Source: Stenotrophomonas acidaminiphila
Lineage (GTDB): Bacteria; Pseudomonadota; Gammaproteobacteria; Xanthomonadales; Xanthomonadaceae
Direction: 5' to 3'
DNA length: 64,000 bases
NCBI GenBank assembly: GCA_002951995.1
Contig: CP019797.1
Location: forward strand, 3,022,501-3,086,500
Part shown: one piece after another, positions 26,769-38,051 of the stretch
How the letters are laid out: the number at the start of each line of letters is the position of its first letter
Position numbering within the stretch: position 1 is the stretch's first letter
Notes under the pieces: generated by a model
The model's input: only the letters and a program-made list of their open reading frames with translations
What the model was told of the DNA's origin: nothing
Database searches by the model: none
Translations under genes and position numbers: made by a program

Positions 26769-27860
26769 TCAGCCCTCCAGCCCAAGGAATACCCGCATCC
26801 GCGCCAGCTCCGCCTCCAGCGCGGTGTCGAACGCGGTGTCCTTCGGCGCGTGGCCGGCGACATAGTGCAGCCGCGCCTGCAGCGCGCCCGCCACGACCGA
26901 CAGGTTGCCCCAGCCGATCACCTGCCCGCGCCACAGCAACGGCATCGCGTAGTAGCCGAGCTTGCGCTTCGGCGCCGGGGTGTAAGCCTCGAACCGGTAG
27001 CTCCAGCCCCACAGTTGTTCGAAGCGGCGGCGGTCCCATACCACCGGGTCGAACGGCGTCAGCAGGCGCGCGTCCTCATCCAACTGCCAGCGCCGGCTTT
27101 CGGCACGCTCACCGTCAGGCCACAGCCAGTCCACGCCGTCCACGCGCGCGCACTGCAGGCGCTGCCGCGCGCGCAGCAGCGCCTGCCGGCACGCATCGCG
27201 CCACTGCGGCACGCCGTTGCCGAGGTAGCCGACCAGCTGCCGCAGGCTGGCGGCCGGCAGCGGCGCGTAGGTATTCACGATCAGGTCGAGCAACGCATCC
27301 AGCCGCGCCTGGATCTCTTGCGCCGCCACCGGCGGGGCGTCCTCGCGCACGGCGTACACGCGGGTGCCGCCGTCGCGCCGCGCCACCCGCAGCAGGCCGC
27401 GGTAGTGCATGCCGTCGAGCAGCTGCGTGCTGGCGTTGGACGTGCCGCCGAACCAATTTGTGGTCTTGCCGTGGGCGAAATGGGCATCGACCTGGCGCGG
27501 ATGCACCGCACCGTGCGCGGCGACGAACGCGCGCACCGCGTGCGCCTGCTTCCAGCGTGCCGGGGTCCATGCCACGCGCGCCTGCCGCGGATGCATCAGC
27601 GCCTGGTGCGCGCGCGGCAGGAAGCCGTAGTTGACGAAGAAATCCTCTTCCAGCGGCAGGCGCGGGTAGCGCCGTTCCAGCTCGCCGGCGCGGTAGTCCC
27701 TGACCCGGTGGCGCAGGGTCAGGTCCTGCGCGCGCGCCGGCGCACGGATGGGATCGGCCTGGACGAAGCCGAGTTTGGTGATCGCCCGCATCAGCGTGGT
27801 CGGCGCGAACAGCGAGCGGGCCACGGCATAGCGGCGGAGCTGGTCGAGGGTGGGCGGCAT
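26769..27860 (-). CDS. YcaQ/AlkX-type crosslink-repair DNA glycosylase
   Basis: 363 residues, winged-helix DNA glycosylase family (HTH_42). The catalytic Q-x-D motif is seen in GFVQADPIRAPARAQDL near residue 35, the family position that unhooks interstrand crosslinks in E. coli YcaQ. Other hallmarks: EEDFFVNYGFLPRAHQALMHPR, TTNWFGGTSNASTQLLDGMHYRGLL, and LLTPFDPVVWDRRRFEQLWGWSYRFEAYTPAPKRKLGYYAMPLLWRGQVIGW, all typical. Cytoplasmic DNA repair role inferred from family. Stands alone. Confidence 0.85.
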   Translation of the reverse strand: MPPTLDQLRRYAVARSLFAPTTLMRAITKLGFVQADPIRAPARAQDLTLRHRVRDYRAGELERRYPRLPLEEDFFVNYGFLPRAHQALMHPRQARVAWTPARWKQAHAVRAFVAAHGAVHPRQVDAHFAHGKTTNWFGGTSNASTQLLDGMHYRGLLRVARRDGGTRVYAVREDAPPVAAQEIQARLDALLDLIVNTYAPLPAASLRQLVGYLGNGVPQWRDACRQALLRARQRLQCARVDGVDWLWPDGERAESRRWQLDEDARLLTPFDPVVWDRRRFEQLWGWSYRFEAYTPAPKRKLGYYAMPLLWRGQVIGWGNLSVVAGALQARLHYVAGHAPKDTAFDTALEAELARMRVFLGLEG

Positions 27861-28008
27861 GCGCGCATCATGCCAGCCGCTGGCGCCCTGGCGCGCATCG
27901 CAGCATGCCGCTCACGCCACGCAGCGGCACGCCCGCGGCGGCGTGCGCGGGCACTTCCTGTACCATCGACCGCGAGAAGGACGCCATACGCAGACAGGGA
28001 GTCCGCCC

Positions 28009-28644
28009 ATGCGTGCGAACCGCTCCAAGAGCGCACTGCTCTACCGCCAGCTCCGGCGGGCCTTGCAGTCGGGGCGCTACCTGCCCGGGCAGCGGATCGA
28101 TCCGGGCACGCTGGCCGAGGAATTCAGCATCAGTCCCACGCCGGTGCGGTTCGCGCTGTACCGCCTGGTCGGCGAGGGGCTGATCGACGATCACGCCCGC
28201 GACGGACTGCATGTGCCGCTGCTCACCGAAGTCGCCCTGCGCGACCTCTACGACTGGATGGAACGCCTGCTGCTGATGGCCTGCGAGGTCGAGGCACCGC
28301 CCGCGGTGAGCGCCGGCGAAGCACTGCCGTACCTGCCTGGCGGTCCCCGCGGCGACCCGGTCAAGGGCACCTGGCAGCTGTTCGACGCCATCGCCCGCGC
28401 GCCCGGATTCCGCCCGCTGCACCATGCGGTGAAACAGGCCAACGACCGGCTCGCGCCGGTGCGTCGCGCCAAACGCGGCCTCATCGACCAGCCCGACGAG
28501 GAACTGGCGCGGCTCGGCGGCCACTGGCAGGCGCGCGACATGGTGGCGCTGCGGGCCGGGCTGCGCGCGTATCACGCACGCCGCAGGCAACTGGTGCCGC
28601 GGATCGTGGCACTGCTCGTCGACCGTCGCGACCAGCAGCCGTAA
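28009..28644 (+). CDS. GntR-like transcriptional regulator beside the lasso cluster
   Basis: 211 residues. N-terminal winged helix: LLYRQLRRALQSGRYLPGQRIDPGTLAEEFSISPTPVRFALYRLVGEGLI, the GntR recognition-helix pattern; the C-terminal half is alpha-helical and effector-binding in the family but not classifiable by eye. The ATG at 28009 (MRANRSKSALLYRQ) was taken because the upstream frame has no regulator sequence. The gene lies 253 bases before the lasso precursor on the same strand, so it is a strong candidate controller of the cluster, with a palindrome at 28818-28832 as possible operator. Confidence 0.8.
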   Translation: MRANRSKSALLYRQLRRALQSGRYLPGQRIDPGTLAEEFSISPTPVRFALYRLVGEGLIDDHARDGLHVPLLTEVALRDLYDWMERLLLMACEVEAPPAVSAGEALPYLPGGPRGDPVKGTWQLFDAIARAPGFRPLHHAVKQANDRLAPVRRAKRGLIDQPDEELARLGGHWQARDMVALRAGLRAYHARRRQLVPRIVALLVDRRDQQP

Positions 28645-28817
28645 CCGTCGCCCATGCACCATCGCCCGCGCGCATGCCATCACGCCGGTGCATGGTGCCG
28701 GCAGTGCCGGCCGGCGCATGCCGGAGCGGCGGCACCTCATGCATCGCACAGGGAAGCGGCGCATTGCATGACCGGCTGCACGTCTTCGGACAATCATCGT
28801 TTAGCAACGCAATAATC

Positions 28818-28849
28818 ATTTGATAATCAAATTTCCCGGCTCCTAGGCT
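28818..28849 (+). promoter_or_regulatory. Probable promoter and operator of the lasso precursor gene
   Basis: The palindrome ATTTGATaATCAAAT (28818-28832) overlaps a -35-like TTGATA (28820-28825); a -10-like TAGGCT follows at 28844-28849, spacing 18. Transcription would begin about 40 bases before the precursor ATG at 28898. The stretch is A/T-rich against a GC-rich background. Repressor identity (the GntR-like gene just upstream) is inference. Confidence 0.5.
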
Positions 28850-28897
28850 GGCTGTCGTCATGGAAACCGCCATGACGCAACCGCAGGAGAGGCAAAG

Positions 28898-29041
28898 ATG
28901 AACAGCAACGACAACCACCGCATGCACGCGGACGATGTGATCGTGCTCGGCGTCGCCAGTGTGGAGACGCAGGGAGGCGCCGGTCCCGGCGAGCCGACGG
29001 GCCCTGGTCTGCCGATGATTCCGGGCATTTCCGAAGAGTAA
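28898..29041 (+). CDS. Lasso peptide precursor (xanthomonin-like, seven-residue ring)
   Basis: 47 residues, preceded by a strong AGGAGA site. Leader of 25 residues: it contains ADDVIVLGVASVETQ, the proteobacterial leader pattern recognised by the RRE, with Thr at -2 from the core. Predicted core of 22 residues starts at the GG after VETQ: ring part GGAGPGE, tail PTGPGLPM then IPGISEE. Glu7 is the only acidic residue at positions 7-9, so the macrolactam must be Gly1 to Glu7, a seven-membered ring as in the known xanthomonins from Xanthomonas gardneri, whose precursors also end PGISEE as I recall. The tail has four prolines, which is unusual. Too short for many gene callers. Confidence 0.9.
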   Translation: MNSNDNHRMHADDVIVLGVASVETQGGAGPGEPTGPGLPMIPGISEE

Positions 29042-29050
29042 GCCACCCAG

Positions 29051-29072
29051 GACGCGCACTCCGGTGCGCGTC
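29051..29072 (+). promoter_or_regulatory. Intercistronic hairpin between precursor and processing genes
   Basis: GACGCGCAC and GTGCGCGTC form a perfect nine-base-pair stem over a TCCG loop, ten bases after the precursor stop and 16 before the B gene start. There is no T-tract, so it is more likely an attenuator or an mRNA-stabilising element that lets precursor transcript exceed that of the enzymes, as reported for other lasso clusters. Confidence 0.7.
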
Positions 29073-29087
29073 CTGCCGGGAGAACGC

Positions 29088-29753
29088 ATGCGCTGGCTCA
29101 TCAACCAGGACTTGTCCTGCTGCGAGATCGACGAACACCTGGTCTTCCTTGATCTTGCTCTCGACCGCTACTTCAGACTGTCGCCTCCGCTGGAGTCGGC
29201 AATGCGTGCCTATCTGGCGTCGGGAACGCTTGCCCGGCATCAGCGCGAGGCGCTGGAACGCAGCGGAATCGTGATCGCCTACGCCCCCGAATGCGCCACC
29301 ATGCCCGACCTGCCCGCCCCTACGGCCAGCGCCATCGAGTCGCCGGCCATGGCAATGCCCAGAACTGGGCCGTCGGTACTGGCGGAAGTCGCGGCAACCG
29401 TGTGGGGGACCAGGCGTCGCCTGCGACGCGACCCATTCAGGTCCGTTATCGACAATACCCTAACCGGCGGAGCTCCGCGCCCATCTGGTTCCTGCATGAC
29501 GTCGCACCGGGCACTGGAGGAAGCCACATTGCAGTTCATCAGGGCGCGTCGTTACGTGCCCATCGCCCCATGCTGCCTGCTGGATTCACTGGCACTGTTC
29601 CGCTTCCTCGCACGCCGTCGTCTGCCGGCGCGCATCGTCTTCGGCGTGACCCTGCTTCCGTTCGCGGCGCACTGCTGGCTCCAGGCGGGGGGCACCATCC
29701 TCAACGAGACCTTGTCAGACGCGGGTGCGCATACCCCGGTCAGGATAATCTGA
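29088..29753 (+). CDS. Lasso peptide processing protein B (RRE plus leader protease)
   Basis: 221 residues in two domains. Residues 1-80 resemble a PqqD-like RiPP recognition element (CCEIDEHLVFLDLALDRYFRLSPPLESAMRAYL), which binds the leader. Residues 130-221 are a transglutaminase-like cysteine protease: Cys in IAPCCLLDSLALFRFLARR, then LPARIVFGVTLLPFAAHCWLQAGGTILNE with the His of AHCW and the acidic residue of LNE as likely triad partners. Domains are fused, as in McjB. It releases the core for ring closure by C. Start ATG at 29088 has a GGGAGA site. Its TGA overlaps the ATG of the C gene. Confidence 0.88.
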   Translation: MRWLINQDLSCCEIDEHLVFLDLALDRYFRLSPPLESAMRAYLASGTLARHQREALERSGIVIAYAPECATMPDLPAPTASAIESPAMAMPRTGPSVLAEVAATVWGTRRRLRRDPFRSVIDNTLTGGAPRPSGSCMTSHRALEEATLQFIRARRYVPIAPCCLLDSLALFRFLARRRLPARIVFGVTLLPFAAHCWLQAGGTILNETLSDAGAHTPVRII

Positions 29754-31480
29754 TGGAACCACACTATCTTCTCCTGTTCGGCGAGAGCGCACGCGACGCC
29801 GCATCGACGGAAGCGTCCCTGCTTGCCCGGGGATTCCGCTGTGAACTACGTACCCCGCATGCCTGCCTGTACGTCTCCACCGCCACACCCGTGCTGAGGT
29901 GGCCTGGCCACGGCGTCCTGATAGGCCGGCTTTTCGACCGCAATGGCAAGGCAATCACCCTCCCCTTCGGTCTGGATTCAAACGCGGAGGAGCGCGAGCA
30001 CCAGGTACTGCACGACAGCTGGGGCGAGTACCTACTGGTACAGCTGGCTGGGTCTGCTGAGGACCCGATACTGCGACTTCTGCGCGATCCGTCCGGCGCG
30101 GTACCGTGTGTCTACCAGGTGACCGGCAAGGGGGGATTCGTGACCTCCGACATCGCCCTGGCCGCGCACCTGGGCCTGTACCACAAGACAGTGGACTGGG
30201 CCGCGATGGCACATGGACTGGCCTATCCCTACCTGAGGACGGGGCGTACCACGTTGGACCAGCTACGAGAGCTACTGCCGGGGTTTGTGCTCCACTGTGA
30301 CGGCACCGGCTCCTCCACGCGGATGGCCTGGACACCTTGGCGTTTCGTGTCTTCCGATAGGCGCCATGAGGATCGCGACGCGGCCGCGGCGGATATACGC
30401 TCAGCGGTCAGCATGGTGGTCTGCGCAATGACTGCCGCGGACCGGAAGTTGGTGGTGGAACTATCAGGCGGTCTTGATTCGTCCATCGTCGCGGTCTGCC
30501 TTCAGGAGCAAGCCGCGACCGCCATCTTCTGTACGCTGGTGATGCCGGTGGCCGGGACCGATGAGCGCCCCTATGCACGCCTGGTGACGGATGCCCTTGC
30601 AACCGAGCTCGTCACCCAGCAGGTTGGATTCCAGAATGTCCGCTTTGACTTTCCATTGGCGCCGTCGGCGTTCCTGCCGGCGATGGGTATCCTGCAGAAT
30701 GCGGTGAACGAAGCCTGGGAGGTGGCTGGCGCAGCCCACGCGGCGGACAGCTATGTGTCCGGCGGAGGCGGAGATACCGTCTTCTGCTACCTGAAGACAG
30801 CAGCACCGGCCGCCGACGCCTTCCGCGAGAACGGGCTGTTGGCCGGCATCGCCGCCATTGAAGACCTCTCCACCCTTCACCAGTGCACGTTCTGGACAGC
30901 ACTGCGGCTGACGCTGCGCAAGCTGGCTCGTCCAGGGCGCGACGTGTGGAAGCAGGACCGCCGCTTCCTTGCCATGGAACATGTGCCCGAAGCACCCGAG
31001 TACCATGGGTGGCTGGACATGCCGGTCGATGCGTTGCCGGGGGACCGGGAGAAGATCCAGGATCTCATCGGTACACAGTTGTTCCGTGATACCGCCCCCC
31101 GCCGCGGAGGGCGTTCCGTGCACTTTCCGCTGCTGTCACAGCCGGTCATGGAAGCATGCCTGCGCGTTCCTTCATGGATGTGGATAAATCGAGGCCGAAA
31201 TCGCGCGGTGGCGCGCGACGCCTTCTCAGACCGGCTGCCGCTGGCTGTTCGCGATCGGCGCAGCAAGGGCTCGTATACCGGCTACATGGCCGCCGCCTAT
31301 GCCCGCAACAGGCAGGGTATGCGCCGGTTTCTGGGAGAAGGACAGCTGGCTGCCCATGGGTTGCTGGACCACGCTGCGCTGATGGACTTCCTGGACCATG
31401 AACTGGCCCCCCGTGACCTTTCGTTCCTGCGCGTCTTCGACCTGTGTGCCGCGGAAAACTGGGCCAGGCAGCAGGTCTAG
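29753..31480 (+). CDS. Lasso cyclase C (asparagine synthetase-like)
   Basis: 575 residues. The N-terminal glutaminase-like part (to about 190) is followed by the ATP-pyrophosphatase core with VELSGGLDSSIVAVCL (PP motif) and DSYVSGGGGDTVFCYLK. It adenylates Glu7 of the core and lets Gly1 attack, closing the macrolactam. Start ATG at 29753 is part of TGATG with the B stop, so B and C are coupled. The stop TAG overlaps the stop of the convergent isopeptidase gene: the four bases CTAG at 31477-31480 serve both. Confidence 0.88.
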   Translation: MEPHYLLLFGESARDAASTEASLLARGFRCELRTPHACLYVSTATPVLRWPGHGVLIGRLFDRNGKAITLPFGLDSNAEEREHQVLHDSWGEYLLVQLAGSAEDPILRLLRDPSGAVPCVYQVTGKGGFVTSDIALAAHLGLYHKTVDWAAMAHGLAYPYLRTGRTTLDQLRELLPGFVLHCDGTGSSTRMAWTPWRFVSSDRRHEDRDAAAADIRSAVSMVVCAMTAADRKLVVELSGGLDSSIVAVCLQEQAATAIFCTLVMPVAGTDERPYARLVTDALATELVTQQVGFQNVRFDFPLAPSAFLPAMGILQNAVNEAWEVAGAAHAADSYVSGGGGDTVFCYLKTAAPAADAFRENGLLAGIAAIEDLSTLHQCTFWTALRLTLRKLARPGRDVWKQDRRFLAMEHVPEAPEYHGWLDMPVDALPGDREKIQDLIGTQLFRDTAPRRGGRSVHFPLLSQPVMEACLRVPSWMWINRGRNRAVARDAFSDRLPLAVRDRRSKGSYTGYMAAAYARNRQGMRRFLGEGQLAAHGLLDHAALMDFLDHELAPRDLSFLRVFDLCAAENWARQQV

Positions 31481-33651
31481 TCTGTTTCGCCGGTCCGCCC
31501 GCGATACTCCGCTCCTGATCCATGCGCGCGCATTTGGCGCCATAGACGGTACTGCACCGTCTTCCCGGGATCGGGATCCTCGTATGCCTGCAGCCAGAAG
31601 CGGAACCAGTCGATGTTGCGATGGTAGGCAGCCAGCTTGTGCCGTGGTTGGAACTTGATGTGGGCTTCTTCCGGGAACACGTACAGATCGCCCTGTTGCC
31701 TGCGCAGCAGAGGCAACGCGTAATCCAGCAGCATCCTGAACTCCTGTTCCGGCAACTGGAACAGCACCGGGACACGCACTCTGTCCAGCTGGAAAGCAGG
31801 TGATATCGTCTTCCAGCGCTCCGGAGTCTCGTCGGGCGCGCCAAGTTGCCACATCAGCTGCAGATTGCTGCGGAATGGCGCACGCAGGCTGTTGAGCAGG
31901 TAGTAGCTCGGCGTCGGTGAAATGCTGGATACGGACGCGGCTGCGACTACGTCAGAGTGCATGAGGGTCCACAACGTCACCTCGCTGCCGAAGCTGAGTC
32001 CGCCCATGCCGACCCGATGCGGATCGACCTTCCCTTCGGCAGCAAGGGCCGCAACCACGCTTTCCACGGCTGTCCGCCCCTGATCGTGGCGCTCGACGTA
32101 GTCCAGACGGAAGCCAGGCAGAGCATTAATGCACAGTGCCGATATGCCTTGCTCGGCAAGCGATGCCAGCGGCCATTCGTCACCCAGTCCACCACGCAGG
32201 AAGCCTTGGCAGGTATAGAACGTTACGAACAGCGGGGATGGCCTGCCAGCATTTTTCGCCTCGAAAAATTGCCCAGTGAACTCGCGCCCGCGTACGTCTG
32301 TCCAGCGGATCATCCGGGCAGGTGCCACGGCGGCGATGTCCTTTTCCAACCCCTTGTTGGGCTCGAACAGGATCCGCCGCTGTCCAGTGTCGATATCGAT
32401 CGCCTCCAGGCGTGGCGGACGGTCCGCCTCTGCGGCAACGCATACCAGCGTCATCGCCGATACCGCGCAAGGCACGTCCCAGTGGCGTTGGCTTCCGCTG
32501 ACCAGGCCGGCCGACACCACGACGGGCTGGACCGCTCCCGTGGCAACGTTCCAGCGATAGATGGACTGCGCGCGCCCACGCTCATGATCGGTGGTCGTGA
32601 ACAGCACTTCGTCGTGCCCAGGTCGCCAGCGCACATCGCTTATCGTCCGCCCGTTGCACAGGCGGTCGGTACAACGTCGCCACTGGGTTGACCGCATGTG
32701 CGGCAGTACGGCCAGCATTCCGTCCCGAGGCTGCAACATGCCGGACTCGGGCTCACCTGCCGGGAACACGACCGCGACACGGCCATCGTGTGGATGCGCC
32801 GCCCGCATCGTCGTTATTGGCAGGGCCGCAGAGAAGCTGGCGGCCTTCTTCGTCCCGCTCGGCAGCTCGTGCACAGCTGCATCCCGCACCACTCCGGTAT
32901 CCAGGTCAACGACTTTCCATCTCGCCGGCATATCCGCGAGCAACGGGCCGGTCGAGAACCAGTCGCCGAGAAACCGCTGGGTTGCGGCGCGGCCATTGAC
33001 CCTGGCCGAACGGTGCAGGCCGGCAGCCAACACGACCGTTTCGTCGATGCGCACGCCCTGCTCATACTCGCGCTGCTCGGCGGCCAAGACCGCATCGCGC
33101 GTAGCGCCGACGCTGTAGAACAGCCGGGCTCCGTCCGCGCCCAGCGCGAAGTCCTGGACGTCAGCCGGGTCGTGCACCATCTCAACGGCACTTGCACCGT
33201 CGCTGGCGGCGCGCAAAACCGATACGCGGCCATCGATTCGGGCACGGTAGTAGAGCCAGCGCCCATCCTGGGACCATACCGCGGGCGACGGCATGACCAG
33301 TCCGGTGACGAGTTCGCGGATCGGCTCCCCGCCCTCGCCGATCCGTAGCGGCGGCGAACGTCCATCCAGGCGTTGCACATACCAGATGCTGTCATAGGCG
33401 TTACGCTCGACGGATGCACGCTCCACACGGAAAGCTATCTGGCGGCCGTCGGGCGAGAGTGCAGGATTGCCCAGGTCACTCAGCTCAAGAAGCCGGCGTG
33501 GCGAGATTGTCACGGCACCCGCTCCCGGTGAGGTGCACGCCACCACCAGCACCAGCCCCAGTGCCGCCGGCCAGGTGTGGGTGCGGAAGATGCAGGAGGC
33601 GCGGGTGACGCATGGCCCCATCCGCCACGCTCCAAGAAGGTGACCACGCAT
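31477..33651 (-). CDS. Lasso peptide isopeptidase (AtxE2-like, S9 family)
   Basis: 724 residues. Signal peptide (MGPCVTRASCIF... WPAALGLVLVVAC) with a possible lipobox, seven-bladed propeller region (about 60-400), and alpha/beta hydrolase domain with nucleophile in MGGLSFGSEVTL and catalytic His in FPEEAHIKFQP. This class (AtxE1/AtxE2) opens the isopeptide bond of lasso peptides such as the astexins, known from caulobacteria, sphingomonads and xanthomonads. Start at 33651 or more likely 33621 (MGPCV, with GGAG eight bases before). It follows the TonB receptor by 14 bases in one operon, which fits uptake then linearisation. Confidence 0.88.
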   Translation of the reverse strand: MRGHLLGAWRMGPCVTRASCIFRTHTWPAALGLVLVVACTSPGAGAVTISPRRLLELSDLGNPALSPDGRQIAFRVERASVERNAYDSIWYVQRLDGRSPPLRIGEGGEPIRELVTGLVMPSPAVWSQDGRWLYYRARIDGRVSVLRAASDGASAVEMVHDPADVQDFALGADGARLFYSVGATRDAVLAAEQREYEQGVRIDETVVLAAGLHRSARVNGRAATQRFLGDWFSTGPLLADMPARWKVVDLDTGVVRDAAVHELPSGTKKAASFSAALPITTMRAAHPHDGRVAVVFPAGEPESGMLQPRDGMLAVLPHMRSTQWRRCTDRLCNGRTISDVRWRPGHDEVLFTTTDHERGRAQSIYRWNVATGAVQPVVVSAGLVSGSQRHWDVPCAVSAMTLVCVAAEADRPPRLEAIDIDTGQRRILFEPNKGLEKDIAAVAPARMIRWTDVRGREFTGQFFEAKNAGRPSPLFVTFYTCQGFLRGGLGDEWPLASLAEQGISALCINALPGFRLDYVERHDQGRTAVESVVAALAAEGKVDPHRVGMGGLSFGSEVTLWTLMHSDVVAAASVSSISPTPSYYLLNSLRAPFRSNLQLMWQLGAPDETPERWKTISPAFQLDRVRVPVLFQLPEQEFRMLLDYALPLLRRQQGDLYVFPEEAHIKFQPRHKLAAYHRNIDWFRFWLQAYEDPDPGKTVQYRLWRQMRAHGSGAEYRGRTGETD

Positions 33652-33665
33652 GCCTTATCTCCCCG

Positions 33666-36098
33666 TTACCAGCGCATCGAAACCGACGCACTGACGAGCC
33701 GTCCGATGGCCGGATAGTTCGTGGCGTCATAAGGCACATACGTCGCGACGGCCGGTGCATACAGCGGAGGAGCGCGATTGAGAACGTTCTGCACCGACAG
33801 ACCCAGCGAAAGCGCCGGGACAATGCCGTCGCGGGTAGCCAGGTCGTAGCCCAGCGTGGTGTCCAGCGTGGTGAACGATGCGCCCTTCTCGGACATCGCG
33901 CCGCGGCGATCGGTTACCCCGCTGGTGTGATTGGCAAATGCGGACGCGGTGAATCCCCCTGACGTCCAAACCGCACCGAGGCGTCCGTTGAACCGTGCTG
34001 GATTGGCAACCGTGCCGGCCAGGGCATGAACCGGTTGGTTCGCGCTGGTCCGCTGTTCGCTGTCGAGCCAGCTGGACGCCCCCCTGATTGACAGCTGTCC
34101 CCGCGGCAGATCAAGCCGGTATGACACCGACAGATCGATGCCCTGGATGCGCTGTCGTGCCGCATTGACATACTGATCGCGGATGATTGCCACCACCTTC
34201 GTGGGATCGTAGGGCGCTCCGGCCAGGTTGTAGAACGCGCTGTTGTAGATCGACAGCAGCTGCGTTATCTGCTCGGGTGTCGGCGCATGGTCCACGAACT
34301 CCGCATATGCCGGATTTGAAAGCGCCTGCGCATAGCTCACCGGCTCCACCACGCGGTCCGTATAGTCGACATCGAACCAGGTCAGTTCTGCTTCCAGCCC
34401 GGGTGCCGCCAGCGGATGTACCGCCAGCGAGGCGGTCCAGGTGCGCGCGCGCTCGGCTTCCAGTTCCGCGTTGCCGCCATAGGACATCAGCACGGTGGCA
34501 TCGGCGGGGCCTGCCGTCGCTCCCACCGCGGATGCACGCCACAGGTACGCCATCCGGTCCTGATGCCGCTGCAGCAACGTCGGCGCCTTGAATGATCGTC
34601 CCCATGAGGCCTTGAGGGTAAGGTGGGCATTGGGATCGTAGATCACGCCAAGCTTCGGCGTGGTCACGGCTCCGAAGCTGGCGTAATCCTCACTGCGCAG
34701 CGCCGCACTTAGTTCCAGGCGATGCATGCCGGGTACGCGACGAGACGGGGTGACCAATGGCGCGCTGAGCTCGGCGTAGGCCGAACGCGCGCGTTCGTCG
34801 CCGCCATAAGGTGTCCCGGTGACGCGCGGACGATACCGGAACGTGTCCTCACGCGAACCGATACCGACCGCCACGCGCGCCTCCCCTCCTCCAATCGCGA
34901 ACAGCGGCCCTTCCGCGCCGATCTCATAGGAGCGGCTGCGGTTGCAGTAGCACGTCTGCGTCACCCGCCTGCTTCCGGCCGCGGAGACGAAATAGCGCTC
35001 GTCGGTGTTCTCGTCGCTGCCGTGCGCGCCGCCGACGGTGAGTGTCCAGCTTCCCAGGAAGAACGCGACGCTGGGCGAGACCAGCGCGATGTCGGTCTGT
35101 GGGGTATAGCGGTAGTAGGAGTTGCCCTGGCTCGCGTAGCGCAACATGTCGCGCCGGGTACGCAGCGCATCGAGTCTCAGCTCGGCCACCTCGCCCAGCG
35201 CCTGGTGGAGGCTGAGCAGTCCGCTGCGCGCGTCGCTGCCGCCGTGGATCGTGTAGTGCTCGCCCAGATGCCGGGTGTAGGCGCGTTGACGCGCATGGAT
35301 CGGATCGGACGTGGTGTCCTTGAAGGTGGCGATCATCCCGCCGCGTTGCCACTGCGCACCAGCGGTCGCGGTGTACTCCTGCGTGGCGAACCCGCCGTCG
35401 GCGGTGGTGGCGCGCCGCATCCCCAGCGCCACGCCATCAAAGTCACGCTTGAGGATCACGTTGGCCACGCCCCCGACGGCGTCCGAGCCATAGATCGCCG
35501 ACGCGCCATCGGCAACGATCTCCAGGCGCTCCACCGCCTCCACCGGAATGGCGCTGATGTCCACCGCCTGCGAGAACCCGTCGTACGCCATGCGGCGGCC
35601 ATTGAGCAGCGTCAGCGACGCATCCGCACCCAGACCGCGCAGATTCAGGGCGGACCCGCCGGTGAGGTCCTGGTTGCCGACACCCGACGCCGCGCCGGTA
35701 ACCCCCGGGTTCTGCCCACCATTGAAGTTCTGCGGCAGGCTGCGCACCACCTCGCCCAGCGTACTGAAACCCTCCTGGCGGATCTGCTCGCTGTCGATGG
35801 CGATCACCGGCGAGGGCGTGGTGCCACCGCGGATGCGGGTGCCGGTGACGGTCACCGTTTCCAGCTCGGTCGTCGCGTCGGCCGGTGGTGTCGCCGCCGC
35901 GGCGGCCGCGCGCGGCGCACCGGCGCCCTGCCCTGCTTCCTTGTCCACCGGCGGCGCCTGCCGCGGCGTGGCGCCCTGCCCTGCGCCCGGCGCGGCGCGG
36001 GCCGCGCCTGCCTCGCGCGCCGGGGCGGTGCCAGCCTGGCCATAGAGCGTGGCGAACAGGGCGATGGAAATGGCGTTGCGTAAAGCGCGGGTCTTCAT
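33666..36098 (-). CDS. TonB-dependent outer-membrane receptor of the lasso cluster
   Basis: 810 residues. Signal peptide MKTRALRNAISIALFATLYG, a low-complexity Pro/Ala-rich stretch (30-75), TonB box-like TTELETVTVTGTRIRGG, plug domain (FSTLGEVVRSLPQNFNGGQNPG..., GADASLTLLNGRRMAYDG, RLEIVADGASAIYGSDAVGGVANVIL), then a 22-strand barrel with the terminal Trp (SVSMRW). It resembles receptors that accompany lasso isopeptidases, probably for import of the lasso peptide or its metal complex. Start 36098 has AAGGA upstream. First gene of a receptor-isopeptidase operon. Confidence 0.9.
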   Translation of the reverse strand: MKTRALRNAISIALFATLYGQAGTAPAREAGAARAAPGAGQGATPRQAPPVDKEAGQGAGAPRAAAAAATPPADATTELETVTVTGTRIRGGTTPSPVIAIDSEQIRQEGFSTLGEVVRSLPQNFNGGQNPGVTGAASGVGNQDLTGGSALNLRGLGADASLTLLNGRRMAYDGFSQAVDISAIPVEAVERLEIVADGASAIYGSDAVGGVANVILKRDFDGVALGMRRATTADGGFATQEYTATAGAQWQRGGMIATFKDTTSDPIHARQRAYTRHLGEHYTIHGGSDARSGLLSLHQALGEVAELRLDALRTRRDMLRYASQGNSYYRYTPQTDIALVSPSVAFFLGSWTLTVGGAHGSDENTDERYFVSAAGSRRVTQTCYCNRSRSYEIGAEGPLFAIGGGEARVAVGIGSREDTFRYRPRVTGTPYGGDERARSAYAELSAPLVTPSRRVPGMHRLELSAALRSEDYASFGAVTTPKLGVIYDPNAHLTLKASWGRSFKAPTLLQRHQDRMAYLWRASAVGATAGPADATVLMSYGGNAELEAERARTWTASLAVHPLAAPGLEAELTWFDVDYTDRVVEPVSYAQALSNPAYAEFVDHAPTPEQITQLLSIYNSAFYNLAGAPYDPTKVVAIIRDQYVNAARQRIQGIDLSVSYRLDLPRGQLSIRGASSWLDSEQRTSANQPVHALAGTVANPARFNGRLGAVWTSGGFTASAFANHTSGVTDRRGAMSEKGASFTTLDTTLGYDLATRDGIVPALSLGLSVQNVLNRAPPLYAPAVATYVPYDATNYPAIGRLVSASVSMRW

Positions 36099-36387
36099 GC
36101 TGCGTCCTTTGGTTTCCATGGTGGGTACTCGGTGCTGCGGTGCTGCTGTCCCACAGCCCGGACGGTGGCCGGTGCGGCGGGCACGCGATGCCGGCGCACA
36201 GGCGGCCGCGCGCCATGGCAGCGGCGCGCACCGACGGTGCGGACGAATTGCAGGTGGTGTTTCCCGTGGCCCTGTGCGGCGGCGGTGTGTGCGCCGTCGC
36301 GGCGCGGTTGCGTTGCCGCCCGCGCTTCCGCCGAGGGAGCGGAAGCGACATGCACGCATTGCGTTCATTCATTAACCCGGTGCGCAC

Positions 36388-36404
36388 ACTACGTTTAACG
36401 TAGT
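36388..36404. promoter_or_regulatory. Palindromic operator between lasso receptor and XRE gene
   Basis: Perfect 17-base palindrome ACTACGTTTAACGTAGT centred on one T, in the 354-base gap that separates the minus-strand receptor from the plus-strand XRE gene 48 bases downstream. Its A/T-rich character is unlike the surrounding GC-rich sequence. The rest of the gap shows no gene. Confidence 0.7.
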
Positions 36405-36452
36405 ATCGGTGTCAAGCGCCCTTCCGGAAGCTTCCATGCACCGAAGCCCGGG

Positions 36453-36749
36453 ATGTACACGGCCTTGTCCGAGAAGAGAGAGCTCCCCGTCTACAGCGTG
36501 CGTCTGCGCGAAGCGCGGGAGACCTATGGCATCTCGCAGCGCAATCTCGGCATCAAGGCCGGGCTGGACGATTTCGTCGCCAGCACCCGCGTCAACCGCT
36601 ACGAAACCGGCGTCCACCAGCCCGACCTGCAGACCCTGCAGCGCATCGCCGAGGTGCTCGACCTGCCGGTGGCGTACTTCTTCGCCGAGGACGACGCGCT
36701 CGCGGAATTGATCAAGCAGTACGGGCGCGGGAAGCACGGCAAAGGCTGA
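36453..36749 (+). CDS. XRE-family helix-turn-helix regulator
   Basis: 98 residues. The HTH is VYSVRLREARETYGISQRNLGIKAGLDDFVASTRVNRYETGVHQPDLQTLQRIAEVLDLPVAYFFAEDD, a Cro/CI-type fold with recognition helix around ASTRVNRYE. It diverges from the receptor operon, with the palindrome ACTACGTTTAACGTAGT between, so autoregulation and control of the receptor are likely. Start ATG at 36453; other starts do not add conserved sequence. The following 177 bases to the next gene show nothing. Confidence 0.85.
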   Translation: MYTALSEKRELPVYSVRLREARETYGISQRNLGIKAGLDDFVASTRVNRYETGVHQPDLQTLQRIAEVLDLPVAYFFAEDDALAELIKQYGRGKHGKG

Positions 36750-36926
36750 TCGCCGATACTGCGGCGCGTCGTTTCCCTACAGTCCCGTGCGGCAACTTCC
36801 TACGCCGCGTAGCGCACTTGCCCGACGGCTCTGCATCAACGCTTCCCCTGCCACCCACGCCTCCGGTGGCGTCCCGCACGCTACCCTGTCGCCCCGCACC
36901 GCCCCGCATCACCGGTTTATCCCGCC

Positions 36927-38051
36927 ATGACCGCCTGCTCCCACCGCGTCCAGGGCCTCAACAACGACGAGGTGCCCGCCGACTGGCCCGCCATCGCCCC
37001 GCACGAGATCGCGTGGCTGGCCGGGCGCTTCGCGCAGCTGCGCGGCGCGACCGCCGCGCAGTGGCACAGCCCGCGGCCGCTGTCGGCCGCGGCGCTGGTG
37101 GAAACCGCCACCGGGCGCGTGTTCGTCAAGCGCCACCACCACAGCGTGCGCGACGCCGCCACGCTGGGCGAGGAGCACCGCTTCATCGCGCACCTGGCGG
37201 CCGCCGGCGTGCCGGTGGTGCAGGTGCTGCGCGACCACGACGGTGCCACCGCGGTCGAACACGACGGCTGGACCTACGAACTGCACACACCGGGCAACGG
37301 CGAGGACCTGTACCGCGACGCGGTGTCATGGACACCGTTGACCAACGTGGCCCAGGCACGCGACGCCGGGCGCATGCTGGCGCGCCTGCACCAGGCCGCC
37401 ACCCGCTACCACGCCCCGCAGCGCGGCACCCACCTGCTGGTGGCGCGCGACGACCTGATCCGCAGCCACGACCCCATCGCCGCACTCAAGGCCGACCTGG
37501 ACAACCGCCCCGGCCTTGCCCGCTACCTGGCGCGCATTCCGTGGGAGGAACAACTACGCAGGATCGTGCTGCCCTGGCATGCGGGCCTGGCCGAGCGCCT
37601 GCGCGACGAACCGCGGCTGTGGGCGCACAACGACTGGCACGTTTCCAACCTGCTCTGGCAGGGCGACACGGTGAGCACCGTGCTCGACTTCGGCCTGGCC
37701 TCGCCCGCCAGCGCGCTGTTCGACCTGGCCACCGCCATCGAGCGCAATGCGGTCGCCTGGCTGGAGCTGGAACGCGGCGCGCAGGCCGTGCGCATCGACA
37801 TCGCACTGGCGCTGCTCGACGGCTACCGCCAGCTGCTGCCGCTGTCCGCCGCGCGCATGCACCTGCTGGCCGACCTGCTGCCGGTGGTGCACCTGGACTT
37901 CGCGCTGTCCGAAGTGGAGTACTTCGAAGGCGTCACCGGCTCCACCGCCAACGCCGACGTCGCCTGGCAACCGTTCCTGCTCGGCCACGCGCAATGGTTC
38001 GGCAGCGCCGAAGGCCAGGCGCTGTTGGCGGCGCTGCACGCGGCCGCCTGA
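36927..38051 (+). CDS. Phosphotransferase-family kinase (APH fold)
   Basis: 374 residues, aminoglycoside-phosphotransferase/choline-kinase fold. The N-lobe includes the nucleotide-binding Lys in TGRVFVKRHHHSV near residue 70, the catalytic loop is LWAHNDWHVSNLLWQ (H-x-D-x-x-x-x-N) and the metal-binding motif is VLDFGLASPASALFDLATAIER. Substrate unknown; APH-fold kinases also act on sugars and antibiotics, but nothing here points to resistance. Its last 264 bases recur almost identically at 38927-39191. Confidence 0.83.
   Translation: MTACSHRVQGLNNDEVPADWPAIAPHEIAWLAGRFAQLRGATAAQWHSPRPLSAAALVETATGRVFVKRHHHSVRDAATLGEEHRFIAHLAAAGVPVVQVLRDHDGATAVEHDGWTYELHTPGNGEDLYRDAVSWTPLTNVAQARDAGRMLARLHQAATRYHAPQRGTHLLVARDDLIRSHDPIAALKADLDNRPGLARYLARIPWEEQLRRIVLPWHAGLAERLRDEPRLWAHNDWHVSNLLWQGDTVSTVLDFGLASPASALFDLATAIERNAVAWLELERGAQAVRIDIALALLDGYRQLLPLSAARMHLLADLLPVVHLDFALSEVEYFEGVTGSTANADVAWQPFLLGHAQWFGSAEGQALLAALHAAA

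Follow-up and report, generated by a model that had tools for sequence, protein, structure and literature searches.

A lasso precursor core of Stenotrophomonas acidaminiphila and its processing and receptor genes differ in history from their flanks

In Stenotrophomonas acidaminiphila, the core of a lasso peptide precursor, the processing genes B and C, the isopeptidase gene, and most of the gene for a TonB-dependent receptor have a history that differs from that of the genes flanking them. On balance, we think that in the Xanthomonadaceae the core, B, C, isopeptidase, and binding part of the receptor form one exchangeable specificity cassette between homology arms that stay in place, namely promoter plus leader at one end and the N-terminal part of the receptor at the other, so that strains of the same species would switch peptide and receptor together. 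Peptides with 22-residue cores and a predicted seven-residue ring would be one such lineage. The stretch of DNA analyzed (64,000 nucleotides, hereafter the window) is part of a single-contig genome of 3,660,864 bases.

The pairing of core and receptor bears on what isopeptidase-type lasso peptides do, and we regard the cassette reading as the part of the result worth following. Should core and receptor indeed be passed on together and independently of the flanks, the receptor would very probably belong to this peptide, and the function of the peptide would become testable, with two core-receptor types occurring under one species name. The cassette reading also predicts that the isopeptidase and receptor prefer their own peptide over the GILQGNEPMGGEPVPG peptide, and it would make the leader/core junction a natural border marking where cores may be exchanged.

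Precursor gene and cluster

The precursor translates as the leader MNSNDNHRMHADDVIVLGVASVETQ followed by the core GGAGPGEPTGPGLPMIPGISEE (window list of open reading frames). A sequence-only reading had proposed a 47-codon gene with a leader ending in VETQ, Glu7 as the only possible ring acceptor, and a tail with four prolines, a PGISEE end, and Thr at position 9. The open reading frame and its translation agree with the gene as described, and the precursor scores over the cut-offs of two curated models, Pfam PF24178 (Subterisin; 49.3 bits, cut-off 27, E = 4.8e-13) and NCBIfam NF033522 (benenodin family lasso peptide; 48 bits, cut-off 33, E = 8.5e-13). The features of the tail are likewise all present in the translation, with prolines after the ring at P8, P11, P14, and P17. 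Since the only acids of the core are E7, E21, and E22, E7 is the sole acceptor for a ring of seven, eight, or nine residues, as had been claimed; rings of eight or nine are ruled out because neither core position 8 nor 9 is acidic. Further marks of a lasso precursor and its cluster are Thr at leader position -2, which passages of PMC10368454 and PMC4960549 describe as the key recognition residue, Gly1, an acidic residue within core positions 7 to 9, and adjoining B and C genes. The core is free of cysteine, as in class II. On these sequence features, positions 28898 to 29041 very probably encode a class II lasso precursor with a predicted seven-residue ring.

A search of the same genome gave no convincing second copy of the precursor (the next-best match, at E = 0.59, was not taken as real). 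No phage carriage was found in the viral_contigs collection (26 pattern stretches, 0 confirmed), and the plasmids collection returned no match at E = 1e-5. The features of the locus are as follows.

26769-27860 and 36927-38051: AlkZ-like and APH-like flank genes
28009..28644, forward strand: GntR-family regulator, conserved first gene of the cluster (PF00392, 1.7e-11)
28856..28877, forward strand: inverted repeat CGTCATGG-aaaccg-CCATGACG, -42 to -21 from the precursor start
28898..29041, forward strand: lasso precursor gene A, 47 codons plus stop (29039-29041)
28898..28972, forward strand: leader, 25 residues, Thr at -2 (...SVETQ), from the translation
28973..29038, forward strand: core, 22 residues, GGAGPGEPTGPGLPMIPGISEE, with a predicted Gly1-Glu7 macrolactam
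29048..29075, forward strand: A-B intergenic hairpin, 12-pair stem, 4-base loop
29088..29753, forward strand: B, leader-processing protease (NF033537, 63.5 bits, cut-off 33; PF13471)
29753..31480, forward strand: C, asparagine-synthetase-like macrolactam synthetase (PF00733, 2.9e-25)
31477..33651, reverse strand: E, AtxE2-family lasso peptide isopeptidase, convergent with C (NF033523, 640.9 bits, cut-off 400)
33666..36098, reverse strand: TonB-dependent receptor (PF00593, 2.9e-30; PF07715, 3.7e-17)
36453..36749, forward strand: XRE-type helix-turn-helix (HTH) regulator, divergent from the receptor gene (PF01381, 1.2e-9)
28963..35691, no strand: putatively exchanged block of core, B, C, E, and most of the receptor (two-breakpoint fit)

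We compared 29 clusters, comprising all nine with 22-residue cores and 20 others of our choosing. In all 29, B and C share a strand and E and the receptor gene occupy the opposite one; the GntR gene was found in 28. An isopeptidase model hit over its cut-off with a receptor gene adjacent places the window cluster in the AtxE2 family; E also matches the solved AtxE2 structure 5txc (E = 4.5e-44), and its N terminus, read by eye, resembles a signal peptide. The NCBIfam B2 model covers residues 97 to 218 of B, with the Cys/His present, and C matches NCBIfam lasso cyclase models, but below their cut-offs. B has Glu (LNE) where most other clusters have Asp (LND), presumably the catalytic Asp; the Glu form occurs in all nine 22-residue-core clusters and in 3 of the 20 others. 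The receptor was taken to start at MKTRALRN, the probable start in a frame that is open to 36368. XRE-type matches were found in 19 of the 29 fetched stretches, some of them incomplete: 18 lie beside the receptor gene and one (G108) beyond the GntR gene.

Upstream of A, the inverted repeat (GTCATGG-N-CCATGAC) shows matching changes in both arms between species. A script found it in 21 of 28 clusters, and the remaining seven slices ended within the repeat. At 28856 to 28877 in the window, it is possibly an operator, perhaps of the adjacent GntR regulator, or a 5' hairpin. A strong G+C-rich hairpin follows the precursor stop in 28 of 28 clusters (of the 29, G352b was not included), and its window counterpart at 29048 to 29075 may balance expression of A against that of B and C.

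Ring size, core length, and the 22-residue group

Of 91 genomes of the genus, four gave precursor matches (E up to 0.01), and the benenodin model matched in 46 of 395 genomes of the family (41 over the cut-off), representing 14 of 54 genera. From the search loci, extra fetched stretches, and named loci, a script kept 51 distinct cores with the lasso leader motif; rows without the motif were dropped, and the weak match G439:C2 (E = 0.0072) was not included. Within core positions 7 to 9, 24 of these cores are acidic at 7 alone, 19 combine an acid at 7 with one at 8 and/or 9, a case in which ring size is not set by sequence, and eight are acidic at 8 alone. With an acid at position 7 in 43 of 51 distinct cores, predicted seven-residue rings are the rule in the sampled family, which within that sample contradicts the earlier statement that such rings are rare. 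Few lasso peptides with seven-residue rings have been characterized. One locus (L060, genome G143) has a 109-codon open frame with three consecutive precursor-like matches, as if cores were fused in one precursor.

An acid occupies position 7 in 31 of the 34 cores with 20 residues, and among those 31, position 9 is Met, Ile, Val, or Phe in 26, while Gly10, Gly16, and Ile17 each occur in 30. All nine 22-residue cores have Glu7, Gly12, Gly18, and Ile19. Their position 9 is Thr in four, Gly in two, and Ile, Leu, or Ala in one each, and three of the four with Thr9 are the window core and its two near-copies. Thr9 is also found in one 20-residue core, GPGGSVEPTGINVLPGITEE. The combination of 20 residues, a bulky residue 9, and Gly10, a pattern drawn from the sampled cores and not a published definition, does not describe the window core, which has 22 residues and Thr9, with Gly10 present.

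MAFFT placed the two extra residues after position 8, which makes Gly12 the counterpart of Gly10. The mean profile score was highest, at 17.8, with placement after 9, compared with 17.2 after 8 and 16.8 after 10; the window core alone scores equally well with placement after 9, 10, or 11. The two extra residues of the window core thus fall within positions 8 to 13, and its loop is predicted to be two residues longer than in the xanthomonins. Since the extra residues lie just behind the ring, numbering from residue 1 may not compare like with like. The sequence-only reading had argued that Thr9, where the xanthomonins have Ile or Met, means a different plug. That argument is weak and unsupported in this form, given a core two residues longer and the presence of Thr9 in a 20-residue core. 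A plug assigned to position 9 by simple numbering was rejected as an argument, the register having been tested by the alignment and profile above.

Trees of B+C, E, the receptor barrel, and GntR were built under a plain LG+G4 model. A single branch separates the nine 22-residue cores from the rest in both the B+C tree (100/99) and the E tree (100/100). In the receptor barrel tree, the group needs two changes, and a single clade is not rejected (p-AU 0.255). In the GntR tree, the 22-residue cores are scattered, with eight changes, a number reached by 379 of 500 shuffles (chance level), and a single clade is rejected (p = 4e-5); two long branches meet there. The window peptide therefore belongs to a group with 22-residue cores whose processing enzymes group together, and this group supplies enzymes that presumably handle a longer loop behind a seven-residue ring.

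History of the block at the AlkZ-APH site

Three genomes of the genus hold a lasso cluster at the AlkZ-APH site: the window, G001 (probably a genome of the species S. acidaminiphila), and S. nitritireducens. In G009, G017, G071, and G075, which were picked by eye because both flank genes lay within 3 kb of each other and the precursor had no match there, AlkZ and APH are 1.4 to 2.7 kb apart, and blastn found no lasso cluster between them. In many other genomes of the genus, the two genes are far apart or AlkZ is missing (AlkZ was found in 58 of 91 genomes at E = 1e-60, and APH in 89 of 91).

Between the window and G001, protein identity is 90, 96, and 93% for AlkZ, HTH, and APH, respectively, and 38, 44, 51, and 50% for B, C, E, and the receptor barrel. 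The corresponding identities to S. nitritireducens are 84, 86, and 89% and 66, 70, 74, and 81%. The nearest relative examined, G001, diverges sharply from the window over a stretch that starts near the leader/core border and ends within the receptor gene (plug region), and S. nitritireducens is moderately close throughout. As a background gene, we used the second, parE-like match of each genome, which we take to be parE and for which only DNA identities were used; gyrB was rejected because the sole gyrB match of G001 was below the cut-off. DNA identity of the parE-like gene to the window is 97.0% for G001 and 94.0% for S. nitritireducens, and the parE-like tree joins the window and G001 (100/99). 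So does the GntR tree (97/94), in which the window GntR groups with G001 and not with relatives of the cassette; GntR identity is 76% to G001 and 73% to S. nitritireducens. In the block tree, by contrast, G001 groups with the other-genus cluster G107 (100/100). Pairing the window with G001 on the block is rejected (lnL lower by 786.84, p-AU 7.8e-55, 10 rows), this pair having been named after the identity profile was seen.

A two-breakpoint fit limited to 28000-30500 and 34000-37000 placed the borders at 28963 (28834-28980) and 35691 (35685-35738), with ranges within 2 lnL; the first base of the core is 28973. This fit makes the borders look cleaner than they are, since informative sites from 28500 to 29000 are nearly balanced, and two 250-base bins beyond the fitted block, at 27750 and 36000, favor S. 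nitritireducens. The divergent block aligns poorly as DNA. We are inclined to attribute the discordance to the swapping of a specificity cassette at one fixed position of the chromosome, presumably by recombination.

An ordinary xanthomonin-like peptide, with neutral length and Thr9, might instead have diverged from its sibling in G001 by vertical descent at a diversifying locus that changes quickly. Rapid evolution is common in receptors and RiPP cores, the 51 distinct cores reflect a diverse family, and core similarity tracks most genes of the cassette no better than it tracks GntR. Across 28 clusters, Spearman correlation with core similarity was 0.30 for the isopeptidase (1 of 2000 shuffles as high), 0.10, 0.11, 0.14, and 0.09 for B, C, the receptor barrel, and the receptor plug, and 0.18 for GntR (127 of 2000 shuffles as high). 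The family-wide correlation of core and receptor is weak, at a level not above that of GntR in these 28 clusters, and a correlation that is clear with the isopeptidase only is not what a strict cassette would predict. However, fast evolution would not join G001 to G107 on the block while the parE-like and GntR genes join it to the window. The rejected pairing of window and G001 already disfavors this explanation, and two gene trees place the nine 22-residue cores together; we consider it decidedly unlikely. Hidden paralogy, in which an ancestor had two clusters and the window and its sibling kept different ones, draws support from genome G185, where two lasso clusters (L118 and L119) with different cores lie apparently in tandem across a contig break. 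Their GntR-promoter-leader stretches are 97.5% identical over 907 bases and about 84% identical in the last 100, and the likeness stops at the leader/core border (cores start at 906 and 903), which we also count as a second case in favor of cassette exchange. Nevertheless, at the shared AlkZ-APH site, GntR, promoter, leader, and outer flanks have the look of orthologs, and the switch falls within two genes, A and the receptor gene, so intragenic recombination would be needed in any case. We regard paralogy as unlikely and exchange of a cassette as the preferred reading.

Proposed role and comparison with known systems

By analogy with the family, B would remove the 25-residue leader after ...VETQ, and C would activate Glu7 and close it onto the amine of Gly1, enclosing the folded tail. 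The calculated [M+H]+ of the core minus water is 2001.959 for 22 residues. Cellular trimming may shorten the tail, perhaps to ...PMIPG (18 residues, [M+H]+ 1543.757); a passage of PMC13352647 describes the crystal structure of xanthomonin I as lacking four tail residues. Once released, the peptide might bind something, be taken back through the adjacent TonB-dependent receptor, and be linearized by the isopeptidase. Killing is most likely not its use. A role in uptake is a tentative suggestion, plausible rather than probable in our judgment, and a siderophore-like role of such clusters is put forward as a hypothesis in a section of PMC11006600. More broadly, a history shared by core and receptor is in keeping with a peptide that has to be recognized by its own receptor, be it for scavenging, signaling, or competition.

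Competition systems also show coupled exchange of core and receptor, which counts in favor of a secreted antibacterial, or bacteriocin, with receptor and isopeptidase serving self-protection. In addition, xanthomonin I/II clusters are listed as bacteriocins in a part of PMC9062649. Against this, no ABC exporter gene was seen between 26.7 and 38.1 kb or among the nine cluster and flank proteins searched with Pfam. According to an excerpt of PMC7549694, an exporter gene hints at antibacterial activity, and proteobacterial clusters without one mostly carry an isopeptidase; a bacteriocin thus seems improbable. We hold it very unlikely that the product is a branched-cyclic, unthreaded peptide or the cluster silent. 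The four prolines might hinder threading, but the frames of A, B, C, isopeptidase, and receptor are open and present in other species. Furthermore, the core is nearly unchanged across three species of two genera while the leader N terminus varies: the cores of S. nitritireducens DSM 12575 (GSAGPGEPTGPGLPMIPGISEE) and "Xanthomonas massiliensis" SN8 (GGAGFGEPTGPGLPMIPGISEE) are each one residue from the window core.

The whole precursor matches the benenodin and subterisin families (NF033522 and PF24178) over the cut-offs, family names that span isopeptidase-type lasso precursors at large; their name-giving members have rings of eight to nine residues. FecI/FecR-type proteins occur with some clusters of the astexin-2/-3 type, and none was found among the nine cluster and flank proteins searched with Pfam. 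Like the astexin-2/-3 clusters with AtxE2, as their arrangement is given in a section of PMC11006600, the window cluster has an isopeptidase and a TonB-dependent receptor beside it, and unlike them, it has GntR and XRE-type regulators. A lasso cluster of another S. acidaminiphila strain is reported in a passage of PMC8194134 that gives no core, and in the genome paper on the clinical isolate SUNEO (PMC5966563), "lasso" occurs in the reference list only. AlphaFold models miss the lasso fold of xanthomonins, according to an excerpt of PMC11639067.

The window peptide resembles xanthomonins I to III, as excerpted descriptions present them, in being class II with a seven-residue ring, here a prediction from sequence. 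The xanthomonin-type cluster of G400 also has the same gene order as the window cluster. Xanthomonin-type precursors with GGPLAGEEIGGFNVPGISEE and GGPLAGEEMGGITTLGISQD, which we take to be xanthomonins I and II, were found in genomes of other genera; they have 20-residue cores with Ile or Met at 9, whereas the window core has 22 residues, Thr9, and four tail prolines.

Our literature search found no report of the window core or of cassette exchange in lasso clusters. The closest published relative is the precursor StcA of S. acidaminiphila ZAC14D2_NAIMI4_2, for which a seven-residue ring was predicted in 2015 (PMC4675943). It shares with the window precursor the species name, a near-identical leader, Glu7 as the predicted acceptor, and the PGISEE end (PMC4675943). 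Its core, GILQGNEPMGGEPVPGISEE, has 20 residues (PMC4675943), compared with 22 in the window. G001 has the same core as StcA, with one difference in the leader, and its B-C-E-receptor block is from another lineage than that of the window. The proposal of a new xanthomonin-like lasso precursor thus stands as to the precursor, with its predicted seven-residue ring, proline-rich tail, and complete A-B-C-isopeptidase-receptor cluster, and falls short as to novelty, since StcA made this kind known in 2015. What the window adds is a new core of a known kind, with a loop that is probably longer.
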